Shown: positions 7,022 to 14,391 of the stretch, piece by piece
How the letters are laid out: each line of letters begins with the position of its first letter
Position numbering within the stretch: the stretch's first letter is position 1
Assembly: GCF_017876655.1 (NCBI RefSeq)
Contig: NZ_JAGIOK010000001.1
Location: forward strand, 372,001 to 436,000
DNA: 64,000 nucleotides
From: Microbacterium imperiale
GTDB lineage: Bacteria; Actinomycetota; Actinomycetes; Actinomycetales; Microbacteriaceae
Direction of reading: 5' to 3'
Position numbers and translations under genes: made by a program
The notes under the pieces: model-generated
Database searches by the model: none
What the model saw: only the letters and a program-made list of their open reading frames with translations
What the model was told of the DNA's origin: nothing

Positions 7022-8548
7022 TCACTCGGCCGCGGCCTCGTCGGCAGCCTTCTTCTTGGCCGGCGCCTTCTTGGTGGGGGCCTTCTTGGCCGGCGCCTTC
7101 TCGTCGGCGTCGGCGTCCGCGGCCTCGGCCTTCTTCTTGGCGGGGGCCTTCTTCGCCGGGGCCTTCTTCTTCGGGGCCTCTTCGGCCTCGATCACGGCGT
7201 CGGCGTCGGCAGCGGCGTCGGCGATCTCCTCGGCCTCGGCGACGACGTCCTCGCCGGCGGCCTCTTCGCCCTCGACGGCGATGAAGCCGGTGAGGTCGAC
7301 GGGCTTGCCGTCGGTGTCGACGACGGAGACCTTGCCGAGCGCGATCGCGAGGGCCTTGTTGCGCGCGACCTCGCCGACCATGACGGGCAGCTGGCCGTTC
7401 TCCTGCAGGGCGTTCACGAAGTCCTGGGGCGCCATGCCGTACTGGGCAGAGGCCTGGATGAGGTACTGCGTGAGCTCGTCCTGCGAGACCTGCACTTCGT
7501 GCGTCTCGGCGATCTTGTCGAGGATCATCTGCGTGCGGAACTGCTTCTCGCTCGCCTCGGCGACCTCGGCGCGGTGCTCGTCGTCCTCGAGGCGCCCCTC
7601 GCCCTCGAGGTGAGCGTGCACCTCGGCCTCGACGAGCGCCGCCGGGACGGGGATGTCCGCCTTCTCGAGCAGCGCGTCGACGAGCTTGTCGCGAGCCGCC
7701 GCACCCTGGGTGAAGACGCTCTGCTGCGAGACACGCTCGACCAGGCTCTCGCGGAGCTCGGCGATGGTGTCGAACTCGCTCGCCATCTGAGCGAAGTCGT
7801 CGTCGGCCTCGGGCAGCTCGCGCTCCTTGACGGCCTTGACCGTCACGGCCACCTCGGCCTCTTCGCCGGCGTGGTCGCCGCCGACGAGCTTCGAGCGGAA
7901 GGTGGTCTCCTCGCCCGCGGTCAGCGAGTCGATCGCCTCGTCGATGCCCTCGAGCAGCTCGCCCGAACCGACCTCGTACGACACGCCCTCGGCGCGGTCG
8001 ATCTCCTTGCCGTCGATCGTGGCGACGAGGTCGAGCTCGACGAAGTCGCCCTTCGCGGCGGGACGGTCGACGGTCACGAGGGTGCCGAAGCGGCCGCGCA
8101 GACGGTCGAGCTCCTCGTCGATCGCTGCGTCGTCGGTGGCGACGGCGTCGACCTCGATGGTGATGTCGTCGTAGGCGGGAAGCTCGAACTCGGGCCGGAC
8201 GTCGACCTCGACCTCGACCTTGAGGTCGCCGGAGAAGTCCTTGTCGCTCGGCCAGTCGATGACCTCGGCCGACGGGCGGCCGAGGACGCGCAGCTCGTTC
8301 GCGGTGACCGCTTCGCGGTAGAAGCCGTCGAGACCCTCGCTGACGGCGTGCTCGATGACCGCACCGCGGCCGACACGCTGGTCGATGATGGGAGCGGGCA
8401 CCTTGCCCTTGCGGAAGCCGGGGATCTGCACGTCCTGAGCGATGTGCTCGTACGCGTGGGTGATGCTCGGCTTGAGCTCGTCCGGGCTGACCGTGATGTG
8501 GAGCTTCACCCGGGTGGGGCTGAGCGTCTCGACGGTGCTGGTGACCAT
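7022..8548 (-). CDS. tig: Trigger factor with Lys/Ala-rich tail
   Basis: Trigger factor is the ribosome-bound chaperone that meets nascent chains. The 508-residue protein has the N-terminal ribosome-docking domain, a central FKBP-type PPIase domain (about residues 160-245, starting [14 protein letters not shown]) and the helical C-terminal arms. The last 50 or so residues form an actinobacterial extension of [10 protein letters not shown] repeats interspersed with Asp/Glu/Ala, which is disordered and histone-tail-like. The order tig, clpP1, clpP2, clpX is conserved in many bacteria and links folding with degradation. Confidence 0.97.
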
Positions 8549-8783: not shown

Positions 8784-8857
8784 GGGGATGTAGCTCAATG
8801 GTAGAGCCTCAGTCTTCCAAACTGATGGTGCGGGTTCGATTCCCGTCATCCCCTCCA
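8784..8857 (+). tRNA. tRNA-Gly (anticodon TCC), integration site of the 5.5-kb element
   Basis: The cloverleaf is intact: acceptor GGGGATG/CATCCCC, D-arm TAGCTCAATGGTAGAGC, anticodon loop CTTCCAA (TCC at 8816-8818), T-loop TTCGATT, encoded CCA at 8855-8857. Its 3' half from the anticodon loop onward is duplicated at 14346-14391, so the element entered here and regenerated a complete gene. Confidence 0.98.
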
Positions 8858-8858
8858 C
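8813..8858 (+). repeat. Left attachment repeat (attL core)
   Basis: The 46-bp core runs from the anticodon loop of tRNA-Gly to one base past CCA and matches 14346-14391 at every position. The flanking bases differ on both sides (G vs A before; A vs G after), which fixes the repeat limits. Confidence 0.95.
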
Positions 8859-8873
8859 ATCGTTACCCCCAGG

Positions 8874-10100
8874 TCAGACGGCATTTTCGTCGGTGCTCAT
8901 CGCCACGCTGAGGATGGCCTGAAGCCCCGTCCGTGCCCTCCCCGTGCCCTTATCGCTCTCAACCACCGTCGTGAACGCCGCTCCGGCGAGGGCGTCCATC
9001 CGGTCAGCGACGAGCGCGTTGCGCTCCTCCGCGACGTGCTGATAGGTCATGGCGGCGGCGGTGGTGCGGTGACCGGCTCGGGCCATGAGTTCGCGCGTCG
9101 TCGCTCCCGCCTGCGCGGCGAGGGTGAGGCCCGCATGCCGCACGTCGTGGACGTGGAACTGCGGATGCCCCGCCGCCCTGCGCGCCTTCGCCCAGGCCTG
9201 TTGGATGCCGCTGTGCGTGAGCGGGGACCCATCGGGGCGGGTGAACATGGGCGACTTCGGGAACCCGCTCGTAGCGTCCAGGTGCTCGTGGAGGAGGAGG
9301 GCGAGGGTGCGGGGCACGGCGACGGTCCGTTCCTCCCCCGTCTTGGTGGGCGTGACGGTGGGGACGCCGCGCACGATGGCGACCTGGCGTTCGACCTTCA
9401 GCACCCCGTCCACGAAGTCGCCCCGCTGGAGCGCGACGAGTTCACCGAGGCGCAGGTGCGCGCCGAACATGGCCCGCATGGGCAGGTGGTAGCGCTCGGG
9501 CATCTTCTCCACGATGGCGGAGAGCACGTCGGGGGCCATGTAGGGACGCTCGGGCGCGGACGCGATCCCGGCACCCTTGATCTGGCAGGGGTTCGACGGG
9601 ATCAGGCCATCGGTCACTGCCGTGGCGAGGATGGAGCGAAGGAGCGCATACGCCTGCCGAACCGCCGTCTCCCCGGTGCCGCCACGCGCCGCGGAGGACG
9701 CCTGGAGCCCCTTCCTCGTCTTGGCGTACCAGGAGCGCACGAGCGGCGGGGTGATGGCGTTCAGCGGCGTGGTGGCGAGGGATGCCAGGTGCCGCCGATT
9801 CAGGTCCTCGTAGAGCACGCGGGTGCGGGGTGCGAGTCTGCCCCGTGAACCACCGTTCGCGATCCACTCGGCGGCGTAGGGGCCGAACGGTGCCTCTCCG
9901 GCGCGGTGGTCCCGGAACGTGCCGCGCATCTTGTCGGCGCGCACCCCGGCGAGCCAGTCGAGCGCCTCACGCTTCGTCGCGAACGTCGTCGGGGCGGTTA
10001 CGCGCTGGCCGTTGGCCTCCGGGTAGCGGGCCTGGTAGCGGCCCGAGGGCAGTTTGCGGACGGTCCCGAAGGATGCCCGGTTCGTCTTGCGCGCGCTCAT
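8874..10100 (-). CDS. int: Tyrosine-type site-specific integrase
   Basis: The 408-residue recombinase carries out integration and excision at tRNA-Gly. An N-terminal AP2-like arm-binding region (residues 10-65, GTVRKLPSGRYQARY) is followed by a SAM-like core-binding domain (70-180) and the catalytic domain. Catalytic residues are R217 (HLRLGEL), K253 (PTKTG), H318 and R321 (HDVRH), H344 (AGHRT) and nucleophile Y353 (MTYQH), so it is complete. The stop lies 15 bp from the attL core, the usual int position. ATG 10100 overlaps the upstream stop as ATGA and has an AGAGGAG ribosome site, so it is translationally coupled to the HTH protein before it. Confidence 0.96.
   Translation of the reverse strand: MSARKTNRASFGTVRKLPSGRYQARYPEANGQRVTAPTTFATKREALDWLAGVRADKMRGTFRDHRAGEAPFGPYAAEWIANGGSRGRLAPRTRVLYEDLNRRHLASLATTPLNAITPPLVRSWYAKTRKGLQASSAARGGTGETAVRQAYALLRSILATAVTDGLIPSNPCQIKGAGIASAPERPYMAPDVLSAIVEKMPERYHLPMRAMFGAHLRLGELVALQRGDFVDGVLKVERQVAIVRGVPTVTPTKTGEERTVAVPRTLALLLHEHLDATSGFPKSPMFTRPDGSPLTHSGIQQAWAKARRAAGHPQFHVHDVRHAGLTLAAQAGATTRELMARAGHRTTAAAMTYQHVAEERNALVADRMDALAGAAFTTVVESDKGTGRARTGLQAILSVAMSTDENAV
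8931..8952 (+). repeat. Putative integrase arm-type repeats, left side
   Basis: CCGTGCCCT occurs at 8931-8939 and again at 8942-8950, 11 bp apart, 73 bp inside attL and within the 3' end of int. The same 11-bp-spaced pair occurs near attR (14218-14238). The matching spacing near both ends suggests arm-binding sites. Confidence 0.45.
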
Positions 10101-10693
10101 CGCGTGCTCCTCTCGGTGGTTGTGGTGCGGCTCGGCCGACCGTCGAACATGCCGCGCTCTGCCGCGCGGTCTAGACGCCGCTGGACGGTGGCACGGCTCA
10201 TGTGTAGGGCCGCGGCGGTGGCGGCGATGGGGCTCGGGCTCCAGCGGTGCTTGCTGTACTCCTCGACCGCGGCGCGCAGTTCCTCGTCGGTGACCACCTG
10301 CCCGCGCTTCGGCGGAACGGGTGCGGGCTGGGGCGCGTTCTCGATGGCCTGAGCGACTCCCTCGAATCGAGCGAGCCCAGTGGGGCCGACCTCGCCCACG
10401 GATGCGGGAGGAGGGCCACCGACCGCGCGCCAGTGGATGGCTCGCACGACCTCGGGAACTCGGATCGCCCGGAGCGCGTTCGTGGTGACCTCCAGCGATG
10501 CGTCGGCGTCGGCCAGCAGGATGCCCGTGAGGATCACGCGCCCATCTTCGGCGGTGCCGGTGCGCACCCAGAACGACGGGGCCGCGGGCTCGCGCGTGTC
10601 TTCGATGAGGAGCCACCCGGCCCCCTGCGTGAGGCCCTCGGGCACGGGCTGGTCGTCTCTCACGTTCCATCGCGCGGTCTGCGTCATGAGCAT
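10097..10693 (-). CDS. HTH protein co-transcribed with integrase
   Basis: The 198-residue protein is unrecognised over its first 130 residues. Its C-terminal 60 residues form a helix-turn-helix (DEELRAAVEEYSKHR, then PIAATAAALHMSRATVQRRLDRA) like those of replication-initiator and phage regulatory proteins. Its stop overlaps the int ATG (ATGA), so both come from one leftward transcript starting in 10694-10844. It could be a recombination directionality or int-expression factor; nothing in the sequence decides this. Start may be ATG 10693 or 10687. Confidence 0.75.
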   Translation of the reverse strand: MLMTQTARWNVRDDQPVPEGLTQGAGWLLIEDTREPAAPSFWVRTGTAEDGRVILTGILLADADASLEVTTNALRAIRVPEVVRAIHWRAVGGPPPASVGEVGPTGLARFEGVAQAIENAPQPAPVPPKRGQVVTDEELRAAVEEYSKHRWSPSPIAATAAALHMSRATVQRRLDRAAERGMFDGRPSRTTTTERSTR

Positions 10694-10844
10694 GAGGCTA
10701 CATCGTTGGCGCGGGTCTTGCTACACCGATGCACCCGTGTCTCTATCGCTCTGCCCCGGAATCTCAGGTGTCTCACCCACCTGCGCCGAAGTTGAGATAG
10801 CAATATGTGCGCATCACTGTCTCATGTGACCTAGCGTGATGGCC
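10694..10844. promoter_or_regulatory. Divergent control region of the element
   Basis: This 151-bp gap separates the leftward int unit from the rightward operon. It holds an inverted repeat CAGGTG-N7-CACCTG (10765-10783), several TCTCA/TGAGA motifs (10762, 10771, 10793, 10820) and a TAGCGT -10 (10832-10837) exactly 7 bases before ATG 10845. The layout is that of a lysogeny-type switch controlled by the adjacent Xre protein; the operator assignment is inferred. Confidence 0.45.
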
Positions 10845-11081
10845 ATGAGCCTGATCGACACCGTGCGAACTCGAAGCGCACTCCCCACCCCGGCACTCCG
10901 CCGCGCCATCCGTGAGGCGGCGGGCGTCTCCCAGGGTCAGATCGCCCGCGAACTCGGCGTGCACCGCATGACCGTCTGCCGCTGGGAGGCAGGCACGTCC
11001 ACCCCGACCGGCGACCACCTGCACGCCTACGCGGCGATGCTGACCGCCCTCTCGGAAGCCACGCGAGGGGGTGCGCGATGA
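10845..11081 (+). CDS. Xre-family repressor of the element
   Basis: The 78-residue protein is almost entirely a Cro/C1-type helix-turn-helix: AIREAAGVSQGQIARELGVHRMTVCRWEAGTS. It probably controls the element's own divergent promoters. Starts at GTG 10836, ATG 10839 and ATG 10845 are all in frame. I chose 10845 because a TAGCGT -10 box ends 7 bases before it, fitting the leaderless pattern seen across this window, whereas the two upstream starts overlap or abut the box. The stop overlaps the next gene (ATGA), so it begins a coupled operon. Confidence 0.85.
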   Translation: MSLIDTVRTRSALPTPALRRAIREAAGVSQGQIARELGVHRMTVCRWEAGTSTPTGDHLHAYAAMLTALSEATRGGAR

Positions 11082-11314
11082 CCACGGCAACCCTCACGCT
11101 CGCTGACCTCCGCGACCGCGCGACGTGCACCATCCCCGAGGCATCCGCCGTGCTCGGCCTCTCCGCGTGGGCGGGCTACCAGGCCGCTCAGCGGGGCGAG
11201 ATTCCGGTGCTCACGCTCGGTCGCCGCAAGGTCGTGCCGGTCCCGGCGCTCCTCCGGATGCTCGACGGCGGGCCGGTAGACGAGCCCATCGCGCTCGCGC
11301 GCCCGAAGCGCTGA
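11078..11314 (+). CDS. Excisionase-like HTH_17 protein
   Basis: The 78-residue protein has a MerR-like winged helix of the excisionase (HTH_17) type: IPEASAVLGLSAWAGYQAAQRGEIPVL followed by the LGRRKVVPVPALLRML wing. Such proteins bend attachment-site DNA to direct excision or act as small transcription factors. ATGA overlap with the Xre gene couples their translation. Acting as the recombination directionality factor of the integrase is likely but not proven. Confidence 0.8.
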   Translation: MTTATLTLADLRDRATCTIPEASAVLGLSAWAGYQAAQRGEIPVLTLGRRKVVPVPALLRMLDGGPVDEPIALARPKR

Positions 11315-11335
11315 GCCGTCCGGAGGGTGACCCTG

Positions 11336-11452
11336 ATGGACACGACACAGCAGACCTCGGAGCCGTTCGTCTCGATGCTCGCCGCGCTCGACCGCTTCGA
11401 CGCGCACCTGGCCGAGTTCGCGCTCGCCGCAGTTGCGGAGGGTGAGCGATGA
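11336..11452 (+). CDS. 38-aa conserved-position small ORF
   Basis: A 38-residue ORF (MDTTQQTSEPFVSMLAALDR..., amphipathic helix after residue 12) begins at ATG 11336, 9 bases after a GGAGG ribosome site at 11322-11326. Its TGA overlaps the ATG of the initiator-like gene (ATGA). Spacing, ribosome site and coupling argue that it is translated. No family is recognised; it may serve to couple translation of the next gene or act as a small partner protein. Confidence 0.6.
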   Translation: MDTTQQTSEPFVSMLAALDRFDAHLAEFALAAVAEGER

Positions 11453-12186
11453 CCGAGACGAGAGACGGCTTCGCGCGCATCCCGGACTGGCTCACCCGCC
11501 ACGCCGTGCCCGCGCTCGGACTGACCGCCGCCGAGGGCTTCGTCTACGTCGCTGTGCGGTCGCGTGCGGACGCAGATGGGCTCGCCTGGCCGTCCTACCC
11601 GACCATCGCCCATGAGACGGGCACGAGCGAGAGCACGGCGGCGCGTGCGGTGAAGCGTCTCGTGCAGGTGGGGCTCCTCGAAGTTGCTGAGCCGGGTCGC
11701 CAGCACCAGGCCACGGTCTATCGCGTGGTCGAGCGCCCGAGCCTCCCTCCGAAGCCCGACCGCCCGCTGTCGAAGTCCGAACGCCGACGCGCTCAGGCTC
11801 CTCACCGTGGGGAGCCTGAAGCGGAATCGCCTGAGGGTCAGGCTCCTCATGGTGACGCCCAGGCTCCTCACGGTGGGGTGCTCAGGCTCCTCACTGTGGG
11901 TAGCGAAGTAGACACAGTGAAGAACACACAGGAAGTAGACACATCTACCCCCACCGCGCTTCGCGCGGCACCCCCCCAGAGGGGGGATGGAGCGGATGAC
12001 GTGAATGCGGATGGTCAGGCTCGTCTCTCGGCTCTCCTCCCAGCGTTCAGCGTGCCGGATGAGCAACGACGCCAGCCGCCCCCGACCTCACGTGCTCGCG
12101 CATCGGCGCATCGGCACGTCTTCGACCCCGTATCCGGCTACTGCGGGTGCGGCCTCCGTAACGACAGAGAGGAGGGTGCGAGATGA
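11449..12186 (+). CDS. Winged-helix replication-initiator-like protein with internal iterons
   Basis: The 245-residue protein has an N-terminal winged helix-turn-helix of the HTH_36/phage-O type (residues 20-92, WPSYPTIAHETGTSESTAAR then VKRLVQVGLLEV), a low-complexity middle (residues 100-200) and a C-terminal CxC-containing segment. The middle encodes QAPHxG three times because the DNA carries iterons there; the fourth iteron is read in another frame, so the repeat is conserved as DNA. This matches the lambda O design, in which the N-terminal domain binds iterons inside its own gene. I infer replication initiation using host helicase and primase. Start ATG 11449 overlaps the previous stop. 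Confidence 0.72.
   Translation: MTETRDGFARIPDWLTRHAVPALGLTAAEGFVYVAVRSRADADGLAWPSYPTIAHETGTSESTAARAVKRLVQVGLLEVAEPGRQHQATVYRVVERPSLPPKPDRPLSKSERRRAQAPHRGEPEAESPEGQAPHGDAQAPHGGVLRLLTVGSEVDTVKNTQEVDTSTPTALRAAPPQRGDGADDVNADGQARLSALLPAFSVPDEQRRQPPPTSRARASAHRHVFDPVSGYCGCGLRNDREEGAR
11794..11901 (+). repeat. Four 19-bp iterons (candidate replication origin)
   Basis: Copies of CAGGCTCCTCACNGTGGGG lie at 11794-11812, 11839-11857, 11860-11878 and 11883-11901. Start spacings are 45, 21 and 23 bp, about two helical turns each with one unit skipped. Copy 1 also forms an inverted repeat CAGGCTCC/GGAGCCTG (11794-11801 with 11811-11818). Each copy contains an imperfect CCTCAC-N-GTGGGG dyad. Confidence 0.7.
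11902..11950. other. A-rich stretch with 12-bp direct repeat, candidate unwinding element
   Basis: Directly after the iterons, 11901-11950 is about 54% A+T, far above its surroundings, with A strongly favoured over T on the plus strand. It contains a perfect 12-bp direct repeat GAAGTAGACACA at 11905-11916 and 11932-11943. Iterons followed by an A-rich tract are what theta-type origins look like; melting here is inferred. Confidence 0.5.
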
Positions 12187-12635
12187 GCACCCCACAGCAC
12201 GACCCGACCACAGCCGACCTCGCCGCGGAATACCTCCTCGGGGACCGGCCAGCACCGAAGGGCGTTCCCGCCCGCGTCGCCCGCGCGACCCGCAAGGCGA
12301 AGGCGCTCCAGATGCGCCGTGCGGGCATCTCCGTCGAGGTCATCGCCGCGCACCTGAAGGTGCACCCCCGCACCGTCTACACGTGGCTGAGAGATGCCCT
12401 CGCGGCGATCCCGCGTGAGGAGGCGAACGAACTGCGTCTGCTCGAACTCGACCGCCTCGATGCGATCTTCCGGGGGCTGTTCCCCGACGCAGTTGCGGGC
12501 GACGTGCGAGCCGCGGAGGGATGCCTGAAGGTGATGGAGCGCCGTGCGCGTCTCCTCAACCTCGACGCGGCGCACACGGCGGGCCTGGAGCAGGTGGGGA
12601 GCCTGCTCGACCGGCTCGTCAACGGGGAGGGCTGA
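12183..12635 (+). CDS. Terminase-small-subunit-like HTH protein
   Basis: The 150-residue protein has a helix-turn-helix at about residues 40-70 (KALQMRRAGISVEVIAAHL, then KVHPRTVYTWLRDAL) followed by a helical region (RLLELDRLDAIFRGLFP, then CLKVMERRARLLNLD). This organisation is that of phage small-terminase-like proteins, which bind packaging sites as oligomers. No large terminase is present, and phage satellites commonly carry only the small subunit to redirect a helper's packaging. Start ATG 12183 overlaps the previous stop (ATGA). A plain transcription factor is the alternative. Confidence 0.6.
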   Translation: MSTPQHDPTTADLAAEYLLGDRPAPKGVPARVARATRKAKALQMRRAGISVEVIAAHLKVHPRTVYTWLRDALAAIPREEANELRLLELDRLDAIFRGLFPDAVAGDVRAAEGCLKVMERRARLLNLDAAHTAGLEQVGSLLDRLVNGEG

Positions 12636-12638
12636 GCC

Positions 12639-12863
12639 GTGGTGCACAGCGCGCCCCGACCGTCCGACGTGGACCTCGCCCGCGCTCGCGCCAAGGCCGC
12701 GTTCCTGCCGTACCGGAGCGCGCTCGCCGCCCTGCCCGAGCCGGTGCGCGTGACCATCACCGCCTACACGGGCGCGCTCAGCGCGGAGGCCGCGGCCCAG
12801 CGTCACCGCGCACAGCGAGCAGAGGCCCGCCTCGACGCCATCCGCACCGAGAGGAGACGGTGA
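12639..12863 (+). CDS. 74-aa hypothetical protein of the element
   Basis: This small, highly charged helical protein is unrecognised. It starts at GTG 12639 (or 12642) after a GGGAGGG ribosome site and its stop shares one base with the next ATG (TGATG). The C-terminal half (EAAAQRHRAQRAEARLDAIR) is predicted to be a continuous helix, possibly a coiled coil. Its place between the TerS-like and HNH-like genes suggests a role in the same process. Confidence 0.65.
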   Translation: MVHSAPRPSDVDLARARAKAAFLPYRSALAALPEPVRVTITAYTGALSAEAAAQRHRAQRAEARLDAIRTERRR

Positions 12864-13285
12864 TGACCGCTCGCACCTACAAGGGCGTGCACCGTGCGAT
12901 CCGAGCCGCACGCGGATCAGCCGTAGGCCGACCATGCGCAGGACCCGACTGCGACCGCCCGGCCACGGGATGGGGCCTCGTGGGTCATCCGACGCAGTTC
13001 GGCTACCAGGCCGATGGCAGGGCTGTCTCGTGGTCGCTCGACCTCGACGCCTACGCGCCGCTGTGCACGCGCCACAACAGCCAGAAGGACGGCGGCGGCA
13101 ACTGGAGCCTCTGCCCGAGAGGGCACGCCCGCATCGCGTGGGGAACGGATGGCCACGGCCACTGCCTCGGATGCAAGCGCGAGCGGGACCGCGAGTACGC
13201 GCGACGCCGCAGAACCTCCCGCCAGTCGGCGGGGACCATCGCCCAGCAGGGCACCGACACCAACACAGAACGGAGGCCGTCGTGA
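12863..13285 (+). CDS. HNH/zinc-ribbon-like protein
   Basis: The 140-residue protein begins with a basic helix (HRAIRAARGSAVG) and then has paired metal-ligand candidates: CAGPDC (C25, C30), a conserved WSLDLDAYAPLC, CTRH (about C68, H71), and a C-terminal knuckle CPRGH...CLGC. The first half resembles the HNH-type proteins found in actinophages, where a CxxCH knuckle follows a 'SLD-D-Y' stretch; here the second knuckle reads CTRHNSQKD. HNH proteins next to terminase genes assist cos cleavage in many phages. Nuclease activity is not certain because the catalytic histidine cannot be assigned by eye. Confidence 0.55.
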   Translation: MTARTYKGVHRAIRAARGSAVGRPCAGPDCDRPATGWGLVGHPTQFGYQADGRAVSWSLDLDAYAPLCTRHNSQKDGGGNWSLCPRGHARIAWGTDGHGHCLGCKRERDREYARRRRTSRQSAGTIAQQGTDTNTERRPS

Positions 13286-13974
13286 CCATCGACAGCGCCA
13301 ACCTCATCACCCTCATCACCACCGCGCGCCGCGACCTCCTCGCCACGGCACGCGCCACCGACCCGCACCTGACGCCGGATGGGCTCCGCGCTCGCCAGCG
13401 TGCCGAGGTCGAAGCGATCCGGGCTCGACTCCTCGACGCGATGCCCGCCGAGCCCGCGGCCACCCCCGACCGCCAGCCCGTGCTCGACGCGCTCGCCCCG
13501 GCCACCGCGGACGACATCGCCCGCGTCCAGCACGAGCAGGCGAAGGTGAGCGCCCTCCTCGCCGCGGGCCGACTCCTCCCCGAGGTCATCGCGACCGCCA
13601 GCCGTGACCGGCTCGCCGCGATCCTCGACAGCGCGGAGACGAGCCCGGAAGTGCTGGAGGCACGCGACCCGGCATCCGTGCTCGGTGCGCTCCACGAGAT
13701 GATCTGGGGTCGACTCGTGCAGGTGGACGACGCGGCGCAGGCCATCGTCGCCGCCGAGGAGGCCACGACCCCCGCCCGTGCGTGGCGGTCGATCCTGGAG
13801 GGCGTCGCGACAGCGGGCTCGATCCCGTTCGAGGGCCGCGTGCTCCTCAACCGTGCCGACCCCGCCGTGCTGGGCCTCCTGGACGACGGGGACGCCGAAG
13901 CGGTGCCCGGCCCCTCCGGGAACCTCATCGAGTCGATGATGGACGGGCTCGACCGCGTGCCGGTGGACGCCTGA
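13282..13974 (+). CDS. 230-aa orphan protein, last gene of the element operon
   Basis: Unrecognised. The 230-residue protein is mostly alpha-helical with an acidic C-terminus and no cysteine cluster, transmembrane segment or known motif. Start GTG 13282 overlaps the previous stop (GTGA) and an AGGAGG-like GGAGG lies at 13272-13276. It is the largest unidentified gene in the element and precedes the operon terminator. In satellites the terminal gene often interferes with the helper phage or the host, but no such function can be read from the sequence. Confidence 0.75.
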   Translation: MTIDSANLITLITTARRDLLATARATDPHLTPDGLRARQRAEVEAIRARLLDAMPAEPAATPDRQPVLDALAPATADDIARVQHEQAKVSALLAAGRLLPEVIATASRDRLAAILDSAETSPEVLEARDPASVLGALHEMIWGRLVQVDDAAQAIVAAEEATTPARAWRSILEGVATAGSIPFEGRVLLNRADPAVLGLLDDGDAEAVPGPSGNLIESMMDGLDRVPVDA

Positions 13975-13988
13975 CCACCGATCACCGC

Positions 13989-14027
13989 CGAGGGGCGGGC
14001 TGGCCTACCCGGTTGGTCCGCCCCTCG
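13989..14027 (+). terminator. Terminator of the element operon
   Basis: A 10-bp perfect stem CGAGGGGCGG/CCGCCCCTCG (13989-13998 with 14018-14027) and a 19-nt loop lies 15 bp beyond the last stop codon. From here to 14345 (about 320 bp) I see no convincing gene, only arm-type repeats and a second hairpin. Confidence 0.65.
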
Positions 14028-14217
14028 CGCCGTGTGCGCCCGTCTGAGCGACTTTCACACCGTCCAGGCCCTCTCACCCCACCCTGCGCCCGTTCGTCGC
14101 TCTGTGCGTATCTCACGGCTCCTGGTGGTGCTCCAGCCTCGAATCTCTCTCCACAGCCCAGAGGGGCCGAAGATGCAACAGCCTGGCATCGCCAATGCCT
14201 CGCGTGAGGGGCTCAGA

Positions 14218-14259
14218 CCGTGCCCTATCCGTGCCCCTAGGGGGCCTCACGTGCCCTAA
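14218..14259 (+). repeat. Putative integrase arm-type repeats, right side
   Basis: Three same-orientation copies: GTGCCCTA at 14220, GTGCCCCTA at 14231 and GTGCCCTAA at 14251. The first two are 11 bp apart, as is the left pair at 8933/8944. They lie about 90-130 bp inside attR, a normal distance for attP arms. Confidence 0.45.
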
Positions 14260-14284
14260 CTCGACCTCACCAGACCACATGAGG

Positions 14285-14325
14285 GACCCCCGGCATCTCC
14301 GCGGTTCTGCGGGATTCCGGGGGTC
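14285..14325. terminator. Hairpin near attR
   Basis: GACCCCCGG (14285-14293) pairs with CCGGGGGTC (14317-14325), and the interior can extend the stem with CCGC/GCGG. It could insulate the element from leftward or rightward read-through at its right end. Confidence 0.5.
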
Positions 14326-14345
14326 GGCCTGGAGGGGGTGACCTA

Positions 14346-14391
14346 TCTTCCAAACTGATGGTGCGGGTTCGATTCCCGTCATCCCCTCCAC
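14346..14391 (+). repeat. Right attachment repeat (attR core), tRNA-Gly remnant
   Basis: This 46-bp copy of the 3' half of tRNA-Gly lacks the 5' half, so it is not a functional tRNA. It marks the right junction; host sequence resumes at 14392. Confidence 0.95.

Follow-up and report, generated by a model that had tools for sequence, protein, structure and literature searches.

What kind of mobile element consists of ten genes in 5.5 kb, occupies a tRNA gene and carries no recognised virion or conjugation genes is the question raised by positions 8813-14391 of a 64,000-nucleotide stretch of the Microbacterium imperiale genome (assembly GCF_017876655.1, contig NZ_JAGIOK010000001.1, positions 372,001 to 436,000), hereafter the window, whose numbering is used throughout. 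The answer that we favour, with a probability of roughly 0.84, is a minimal, cargo-free phage satellite of the phage-inducible chromosomal island (PICI) type, belonging to a lineage of Microbacteriaceae satellites. The original prediction for this DNA, made from its letters alone, had proposed a PICI-like satellite, and the homology of the packaging gene, together with sister loci that bear defence and siphophage-type tape-measure genes, argues for the same. The anatomy of the element, its attachment (att) sites, homologies, distribution and transfer between genera can all be read from sequence comparison.

The gene at 12183-12635, described earlier as packaging-like, is homologous to gene 1 of phages in which that gene stands near the large terminase gene, and its product is probably a small terminase (TerS), as judged from homology and position. 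It is 50% identical over 121 amino acids (aa) to gp1 of Gingerbug. The PHROGs family that it matches, phrog_645, includes gene 1 of Gingerbug, where the terminase is gene 5, and of DelaGarza, where it is gene 8. In Jace, too, gene 1 is a member, and it overlaps the gene directly after it, that of the terminase large subunit (TerL). Gene 1 of Lesiram likewise encodes a TerS homologue, and in the prophage L137 matches to TerL, portal and capsid proteins come after such a homologue. A search of 50,697 phage records with the DNA of the whole element returned three matches, the best to Gingerbug gene 1 (70% over 203 bp). In a tree of 26 TerS sequences, which has long branches and 8 of its 23 forks open, the clade of the element joins Gingerbug with support of 100/99. 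Pfam Terminase_5 matches below threshold fall in the helix-turn-helix (HTH) parts of both TerS (E = 0.033) and the XRE-type protein of the element (E = 0.17).

Ten genes lie between the repeats, two of them (those of the integrase and of an HTH protein) on the minus strand and eight on the plus strand, with a summed length of 4956 of 5487 bp. The tight overlap that had been noted is borne out, with six overlaps and one 3-bp gap among the nine junctions; the others measure 151 and 12 bp. The features are as follows, where L036, L037, L136 and L148 are loci of related elements, the last in a different genus.

8784-8857, plus strand: tRNA-Gly(TCC), the integration target, still intact (ARAGORN, Rfam)
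8813-8858: attL, a perfect 46-bp repeat that is the 3' part of tRNA-Gly (repeat comparison)
8874-10100, minus strand: tyrosine integrase (int), 408 aa (PF00589, E = 2.6e-16; phrog_1, E = 5.7e-52)
8924-8952: candidate integrase arm-type repeats, two CCGTGCCCT copies, matching the set near attR (repeat family D19)
10097-10693, minus strand: regulator with a C-terminal HTH, 198 aa (weak HTH matches below Pfam cut-offs)
10694-10844: putative divergent control region, conserved in L148 and L136
10845-11081, plus strand: small XRE-type HTH protein (xre) (PF01381, E = 1.4e-9; start by comparison with L148)
11078-11314, plus strand: excisionase-like HTH protein (xis), 78 aa (HTH_17, E = 0.0085; 'excise', E = 0.067)
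11327-11452, plus strand: conserved small protein, 41 aa, with homologues in L036, L037, L136 and L148
11449-12186, plus strand: phage-type replication initiator (rep), 245 aa (phrog_270, E = 1.5e-12; phrog_391, E = 8.7e-11)
12183-12635, plus strand: probable small terminase TerS, 150 aa (phrog_645, E = 5.1e-24)
12639-12863, plus strand: conserved 74-aa protein (s74) of the s74-znf-p230 cassette
12863-13285, plus strand: Cys-rich, HNH/zinc-ribbon-like protein (znf), 140 aa (phrog_4160, E = 5e-8)
13282-13974, plus strand: p230, an orphan all-alpha protein of 230 aa, the family marker
13975-14029, plus strand: strong terminator-like hairpin after p230, 91% identical to L148
14033-14282: conserved non-coding block, 89% identical to L148
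14211-14258: candidate integrase arm-type repeats near attR, three copies (repeat family D19)
14346-14391: attR, the second copy of the perfect 46-bp repeat (repeat comparison)

The integrase is intact, as had been stated. The 198-aa regulator, which is 98-99% identical to its counterparts in L148 and L136, is the probable master repressor, judging from its position in the int operon, and the adjoining 10694-10840 shows 94.6% identity with L148 and 92.5% with L136. The most likely start of xre is at 10845, because the near-identical copy in L148 has a stop just upstream. Both family matches of the 78-aa protein are under the curated cut-offs, and its role in excision is a presumptive one. The replication-like gene of the original prediction is supported by its PHROGs matches; rep also matches phrog_8102 (phage replication initiators) and is 28% identical over 112 aa to Gingerbug gp44. 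The znf protein has a weak match to the HNH family phrog_826 (E = 0.005) and relatives in the Microbacterium phages RobsFeet, ClearAsMud and Hendrix.

Family scans were read at E ≤ 1 for Pfam and PHROGs and at 0.1 for NCBIfam and PADLOC, with 25 of 65 PHROGs matches listed for the XRE-type protein. Among the matches listed for the ten proteins, no capsid, portal, tail, large-terminase, relaxase or FtsK/TraB family was recognised, in agreement with the earlier claim that all of these are lacking, and no cpm, ppi or rpp gene was recognised either. The head, tail and lysis genes of a complete prophage were not found among the ten proteins with Pfam and PHROGs. The P4 core genes (alpha, psu, delta and sid) were not named in the general Pfam scan, no dedicated search having been made for them. 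No cargo gene was called in the 371 bp between p230 and attR, where open reading frames were not scanned against families.

The borders of the element are well defined. The two 46-bp copies are identical, as originally reported, and the left copy is the 3' end of the intact tRNA-Gly(TCC), while no tRNA 5' half precedes the right copy, matching the expectation for attR. In our judgement a perfect repeat of this length is far beyond chance expectation. The heptamer CGTGCCC occurs near both att sites on the plus strand, at 8932, 8943, 14219, 14230 and 14250, and elsewhere once, at 11505, with four further copies on the opposite strand; the copies flanking the att sites are candidate integrase arm sites. 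Relatives reveal the locus without the element. At the 29 relative loci scanned for tRNAs with 1.5-kb flanks, tRNA-Gly(TCC) was present at 11 and not found within the flanks of the other 18. At seven of nine measured loci it is separated by 32-602 bp from the hexapeptide-repeat gene seen in the window too (by 1.1 and 1.4 kb at the remaining two), and all seven have tRNA-Pro on its far side, as in the window, and represent the empty site. As these seven relatives show an uninterrupted tRNA-Gly(TCC) locus, the empty site is regarded as the native state. No second copy of the element was found in its own genome (3.17 Mb in two contigs), where only a 32-bp match was seen.

Downstream of p230 the conservation extends into non-coding DNA. 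The hairpin at 13975-14030 has a folding energy of -36.9 kcal/mol. Within the following block lies a core, 14037-14128, for which identity is 83% with L036 and 82% with L037; when the collected loci were searched with its profile, it was found in no genome beyond those of the window, L148, L036 and L037. The carriers of this core are elements whose TerS is at least 82% identical to that of the window; L136, with a TerS of the same similarity, ends before the 14033-14282 region. The core could be a pac or cos site or an origin. In L148 an insert of about 1 kb (L148:10229-11245), whose frames we take by eye to be Doc-like and SocA-like, separates the p230 hairpin from the conserved block, and thus marks a slot for cargo, unoccupied in the element of the window.

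Comparison with L148 shows how such elements travel. The two share about 4.0 of 5.5 kb of matched DNA, in segments of 1836 bp (92.6% identity), 1893 bp (89.5%) and 250 bp (89.2%). For the tig genes of these genomes, of which 1.2 of 1.5 kb could be aligned, the identity is 74%. Since the element is far more alike (89-93%) than tig, a recent move between genera is implied. The proteins are not uniformly similar: TerS is 98.7% and p230 95% identical, whereas identity falls to 65% in znf, to 57% in the part of int after residue 101 and to 35% in rep, implying that modules have been exchanged. The ratio of nonsynonymous to synonymous change (omega), computed with our own Nei-Gojobori script, is 0.04 for TerS, 0.07 for the HTH regulator, 0.10 for p230 and 0.19 for xis in the comparison with L148, and 0.39 for xre (two changes only), 0.40 for s74 and 0.46 for znf. 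Among these genes TerS thus shows the strongest purifying selection, which would be in keeping with a need to fit the TerL of a helper phage.

The gene that marks the wider group is p230. Its AlphaFold model is all alpha (pLDDT 93.1, pTM 0.79), and no match at E ≤ 0.001 was found by Foldseek in PDB or BFVD, the VIA-align Z being only middling. By tblastn, p230 was not found in 50,697 phage and 72,556 plasmid records, and its profile found nothing in the eleven TerS-bearing loci L137-L147, in the whole of Gingerbug or in the parts searched of Jace, RobsFeet and ClearAsMud. It is present in 26 of 295 genomes of the genus, that of the window included (E ≤ 0.001, followed by a profile check that removed one of 27 raw hits, G181 with locus L061, E = 3.6e-4). 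In the wider bacterial family, 12 of 398 genomes have a match, nine of them strong (E ≤ 9e-36) and in 8 of 85 genera; the other three (G593, G539 and G076, E = 1.5e-5 to 2.2e-4) do not count among the 33 distinct p230 loci recognised besides the window. These 33 include L038, L053 and L055, which are fragments or a remnant, and leave out L031 as a duplicate of L036. Gene presence was taken from homology searches; codon-based callers missed int, rep, znf and others in the window. Two outcomes that the original prediction had named as damaging did not arise: the copies elsewhere are not all degenerate, one nearly identical copy lying in another genus, and homologues are not always part of full-length prophages, p230 having been found neither in phage records nor in L137-L147.

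Fifteen of the 33 loci have a direct repeat overlapping a called tRNA, with spans of 4.7-11.8 kb in 14 and a 2.7-kb remnant in one; tRNAs for Gly(CCC), Ala, Pro, Val, Lys, Tyr and Ser are found at the repeat-bounded loci. L149 has a 47-bp repeat and no called tRNA. Six p230 loci adjoin genes that we take by eye to be tadA, tadB and tadC of a pilus cluster, which suggests an integration hotspot in or by tadC, and three more are near a tadA-like gene only. At L040, a second integrase match, which is split (L040:5725-7023), was seen beyond the repeats that bound the element, and may belong to an adjacent or tandem one.

The packaging genes of the sister loci vary. Profiles, built partly from these same loci, detect two types of TerS-like gene, one or the other of which is clearly present in 21 of the 33. 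In two, L054:7465-10037 and L056:7526-10125, p230, TerS and TerL stand in a row, TerS being an HTH protein of the second type; in L054, TerL is followed by frames that we take by eye to be those of a cytosine methylase and a protein of PLD type. In L042 and L149, both without a detected TerS, the place between rep and s74 is taken by an HTH protein of roughly 113 aa with a terminal Cys-Pro-His-Cys motif (L042:3192-3668 and L149:3764-4105), possibly an alternative packaging or regulatory module.

Tape-measure genes are a further link to siphophages. Proteins 41-57% identical to the tape measure of Gingerbug are encoded at L036:5794-7947 and L049:11294-13543, where nearly the whole protein is matched and PHROGs names it tape measure, and at L046:638-1780 and L154:4174-4893, where the match is partial. 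With 33 of the 69 Gingerbug proteins as tblastn queries, the tail-assembly chaperones not among them, the only ones found in p230 loci besides gp1 were the terminase (L054 and L056), the tape measure and gp44 (L149 and L042). Genes for restriction and abortive infection are frequent cargo, and the families seen among 46 hand-picked neighbouring proteins include NgoMIV, Eco29kI and NgoFVII restriction enzymes, DNA methylases, and GmrSD, AbiJ, SocA and antitoxin-type families. No portal or capsid family was seen among the matches listed for them (25 of 35 Pfam, 25 of 169 PADLOC and 25 of 66 PHROG families). Thirty-six of the 46 lie in repeat-bounded spans, those of L138 and L145 without p230 included, and 10 in loci without found ends; some are open reading frames of uncertain reality, and the families are not assignable to single proteins except the first.

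Taken jointly, the proposal that these loci are a new family of Microbacteriaceae satellites marked by p230 has somewhat better than even prospects. Under it, p230 would be a satellite-only protein of an apparently new all-helical fold, which probably assists the takeover of helper packaging or assembly, and the element of the window would be the cargo-free minimum of ten genes in 5.5 kb. Packaging modules would be interchangeable, so that a member could carry a Gingerbug-type TerS, the second TerS-like protein (alone or together with TerL) or a different HTH protein, and the tape measure of some members would rebuild the helper's tail.

The life cycle of such a satellite may be envisaged as follows. 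Infection by a helper siphophage would relieve the repressor, probably the 198-aa HTH protein, after which Int and the excisionase-like protein would circularise the element and Rep would make concatemers. The satellite TerS would then join the helper's TerL and steer packaging to its own site, for which 14037-14128 is the best candidate, with headful filling. The 5.53-kb unit is about one-seventh of a 39.7-kb Gingerbug-type genome, so that about seven copies would fill a normal head, and no capsid remodelling would be required, as in the phage-inducible chromosomal minimalist islands (PICMIs). The term self-contained used in the original prediction therefore fits integration and control but not the whole cycle, since the element should depend on a helper.

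A variant compatible with this satellite reading, which we consider unlikely, is that p230 remodels the capsid and that a monomer is packaged in a small head, as in the Staphylococcus aureus pathogenicity islands (SaPIs) and P4. Many scaffolding proteins are all-helical, as p230 is, and p230 accompanies a packaging gene in many loci, but it has no confident structural match. Spans of 4.7-11.8 kb show no evident size class, against one fixed small head, and this wide range fits concatemers in full heads better; by our own estimate (T^1.5 scaling, T = 7 assumed), the T = 4 form of a 39.7-kb head would hold about 17 kb.

It is quite improbable that the element is instead a small integrative plasmid-like or mobilizable element, with its own initiator and occasional spread by conjugation or generalized transduction, in which the TerS-like protein is a regulator. 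The winged-helix initiator type of rep, the generic HTH of the N-terminal half of TerS and the fact that PHROGs does not name its family terminase would suit such an element. The ten proteins, however, include no relaxase, FtsK/TraB or other conjugation family that could be found, the phage homologues of TerS are encoded at or near TerL, and the tape-measure genes of the sister loci and the TerL genes of two would be of no evident use to it. Plasmid origin was rejected, as p230 was not found in the plasmid records and rep matched one of them, over 74 residues; an actinomycete integrative and conjugative element (AICE) was rejected as well, TraB/FtsK and relaxase not having been found in the ten proteins. 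A decayed prophage that kept int, regulators, rep and TerS, a very improbable origin and rejected here, would account for the phage-type genes and for a tRNA-gene site like that of many prophages, but not for ten intact, mostly overlapping genes under purifying selection, a similar gene order recurring in repeat-bounded elements, a near-identical copy in another genus and the lack of p230 in phage records and prophage-type loci.

Several observations weigh against the satellite reading itself. Excision, the circle, replication, packaging and the helper are all predicted from DNA. PHROGs labels phrog_645 'RNase E', although this label is probably wrong and is doubted because the members, which look like small terminases, sit at gene 1 near the large terminase. 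Searches of solved structures with TerS returned generic HTH proteins only, three genes in Gingerbug and six in DelaGarza intervene between gene 1 and the terminase, and no cos or pac sequence common with Gingerbug was found, the conserved block 14033-14282 having no match there. No primase or helicase family was matched by rep in the Pfam and PHROGs scans. At larger distance p230 is less constrained than TerS, with omega of 0.57-0.63 against 0.17-0.19 in the comparisons with L036 and L037. TerS is weak or distant in three of the 33 p230 loci and was not detected in nine, while no p230 was found in L138, L139 and L145, which possess TerS, an integrase and repeats that overlap a tRNA, so neither gene is universal. 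These three may be related elements without the marker or with a p230 too divergent to see, and could form a sister group among the satellites. A helper prophage in the element's own genome was rejected, as no phrog_2 terminase or phrog_533 portal match was found there, other terminase and portal families not being searched and the phrog_533 control matching one of 14 genomes, which makes it a narrow test.

Among known systems, the element resembles PICIs and SaPIs in its integrase at an att site, divergent regulators next to int, replication gene, TerS by homology and lack of structural genes, and its relatives resemble PICIs in carrying defence genes. It differs from them in that no primase-type rep or cpm, ppi or rpp gene was recognised, in a marker, p230, that is new to the libraries searched, in its Microbacteriaceae host and in its size of 5.5 kb. 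That this size is unusually small, as had been remarked, agrees with the 7-20 kb stated for phage satellites in the accessible text of one source (PMC13376191). The Vibrio PICMI is closer, being 6.1 kb long and packaged as an eight-copy concatemer in full-size heads, according to the portion available of its description (PMC10803314); at about 6 kb and about one-eighth of the helper genome, without capsid-remodelling genes, it is matched by the element, for which concatemers are likewise presumed. The same portion has PICMIs without terS and inserted next to fis, whereas the element sits in a tRNA gene and carries a homologue of TerS.

The Streptomyces satellites MulchRoom and MiniFlayer also belong to actinobacterial siphophages, and MulchRoom has a tyrosine integrase, as far as the accessible text goes (PMC10690885). 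These two and the capsid-forming PICIs (cf-PICIs) are described there as encoding capsid, portal and both terminase subunits, whereas the element has no recognised shell gene. In Vibrio, PICI-like elements (PLEs) use a tape-measure protein to build chimeric tails, according to the available part of the source (PMC12987554). Some relatives of the element similarly encode a tape measure with no other tail genes found, but the element itself lacks one, and the likeness is one of gene type. Gingerbug-type siphophages share with the group the TerS, rep-like and tape-measure similarities given above, but are full 39.7-kb phages with head and tail genes in which p230 was not found.

PICIs have been described mainly from Firmicutes and Gammaproteobacteria, as the accessible text of one paper has it (PMC10803314). 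For Actinomycetota, the accessible text of another reports homologues of known satellites and predicted PICIs that share a portal protein (PMC10690885), which was not recognised in the element, and satellites in soil Actinobacteria are named in the available part of a review (PMC11389934). The family appears to be undescribed, the literature search on Microbacteriaceae and Actinomycetota satellites having given one directly relevant paper, with most subscription papers outside its range. A family of compact, TerS-based satellites recognisable by a sequence marker, p230, would, as far as these searches go, be new to Actinomycetota. Many phages have been isolated from these hosts. The family makes it testable how ten genes suffice to steal a phage packaging motor, and whether a tape measure carried by a satellite, as in the sister loci, remodels tails in hosts other than Vibrio. 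Through their genes for restriction and abortive infection, the elements at these loci may help phage defence to spread from one genus to another. Outside the element, at 7022-8548 of the window, lies a gene whose product we take by eye to be trigger factor (tig), with a long alanine/lysine-rich C-terminal tail.

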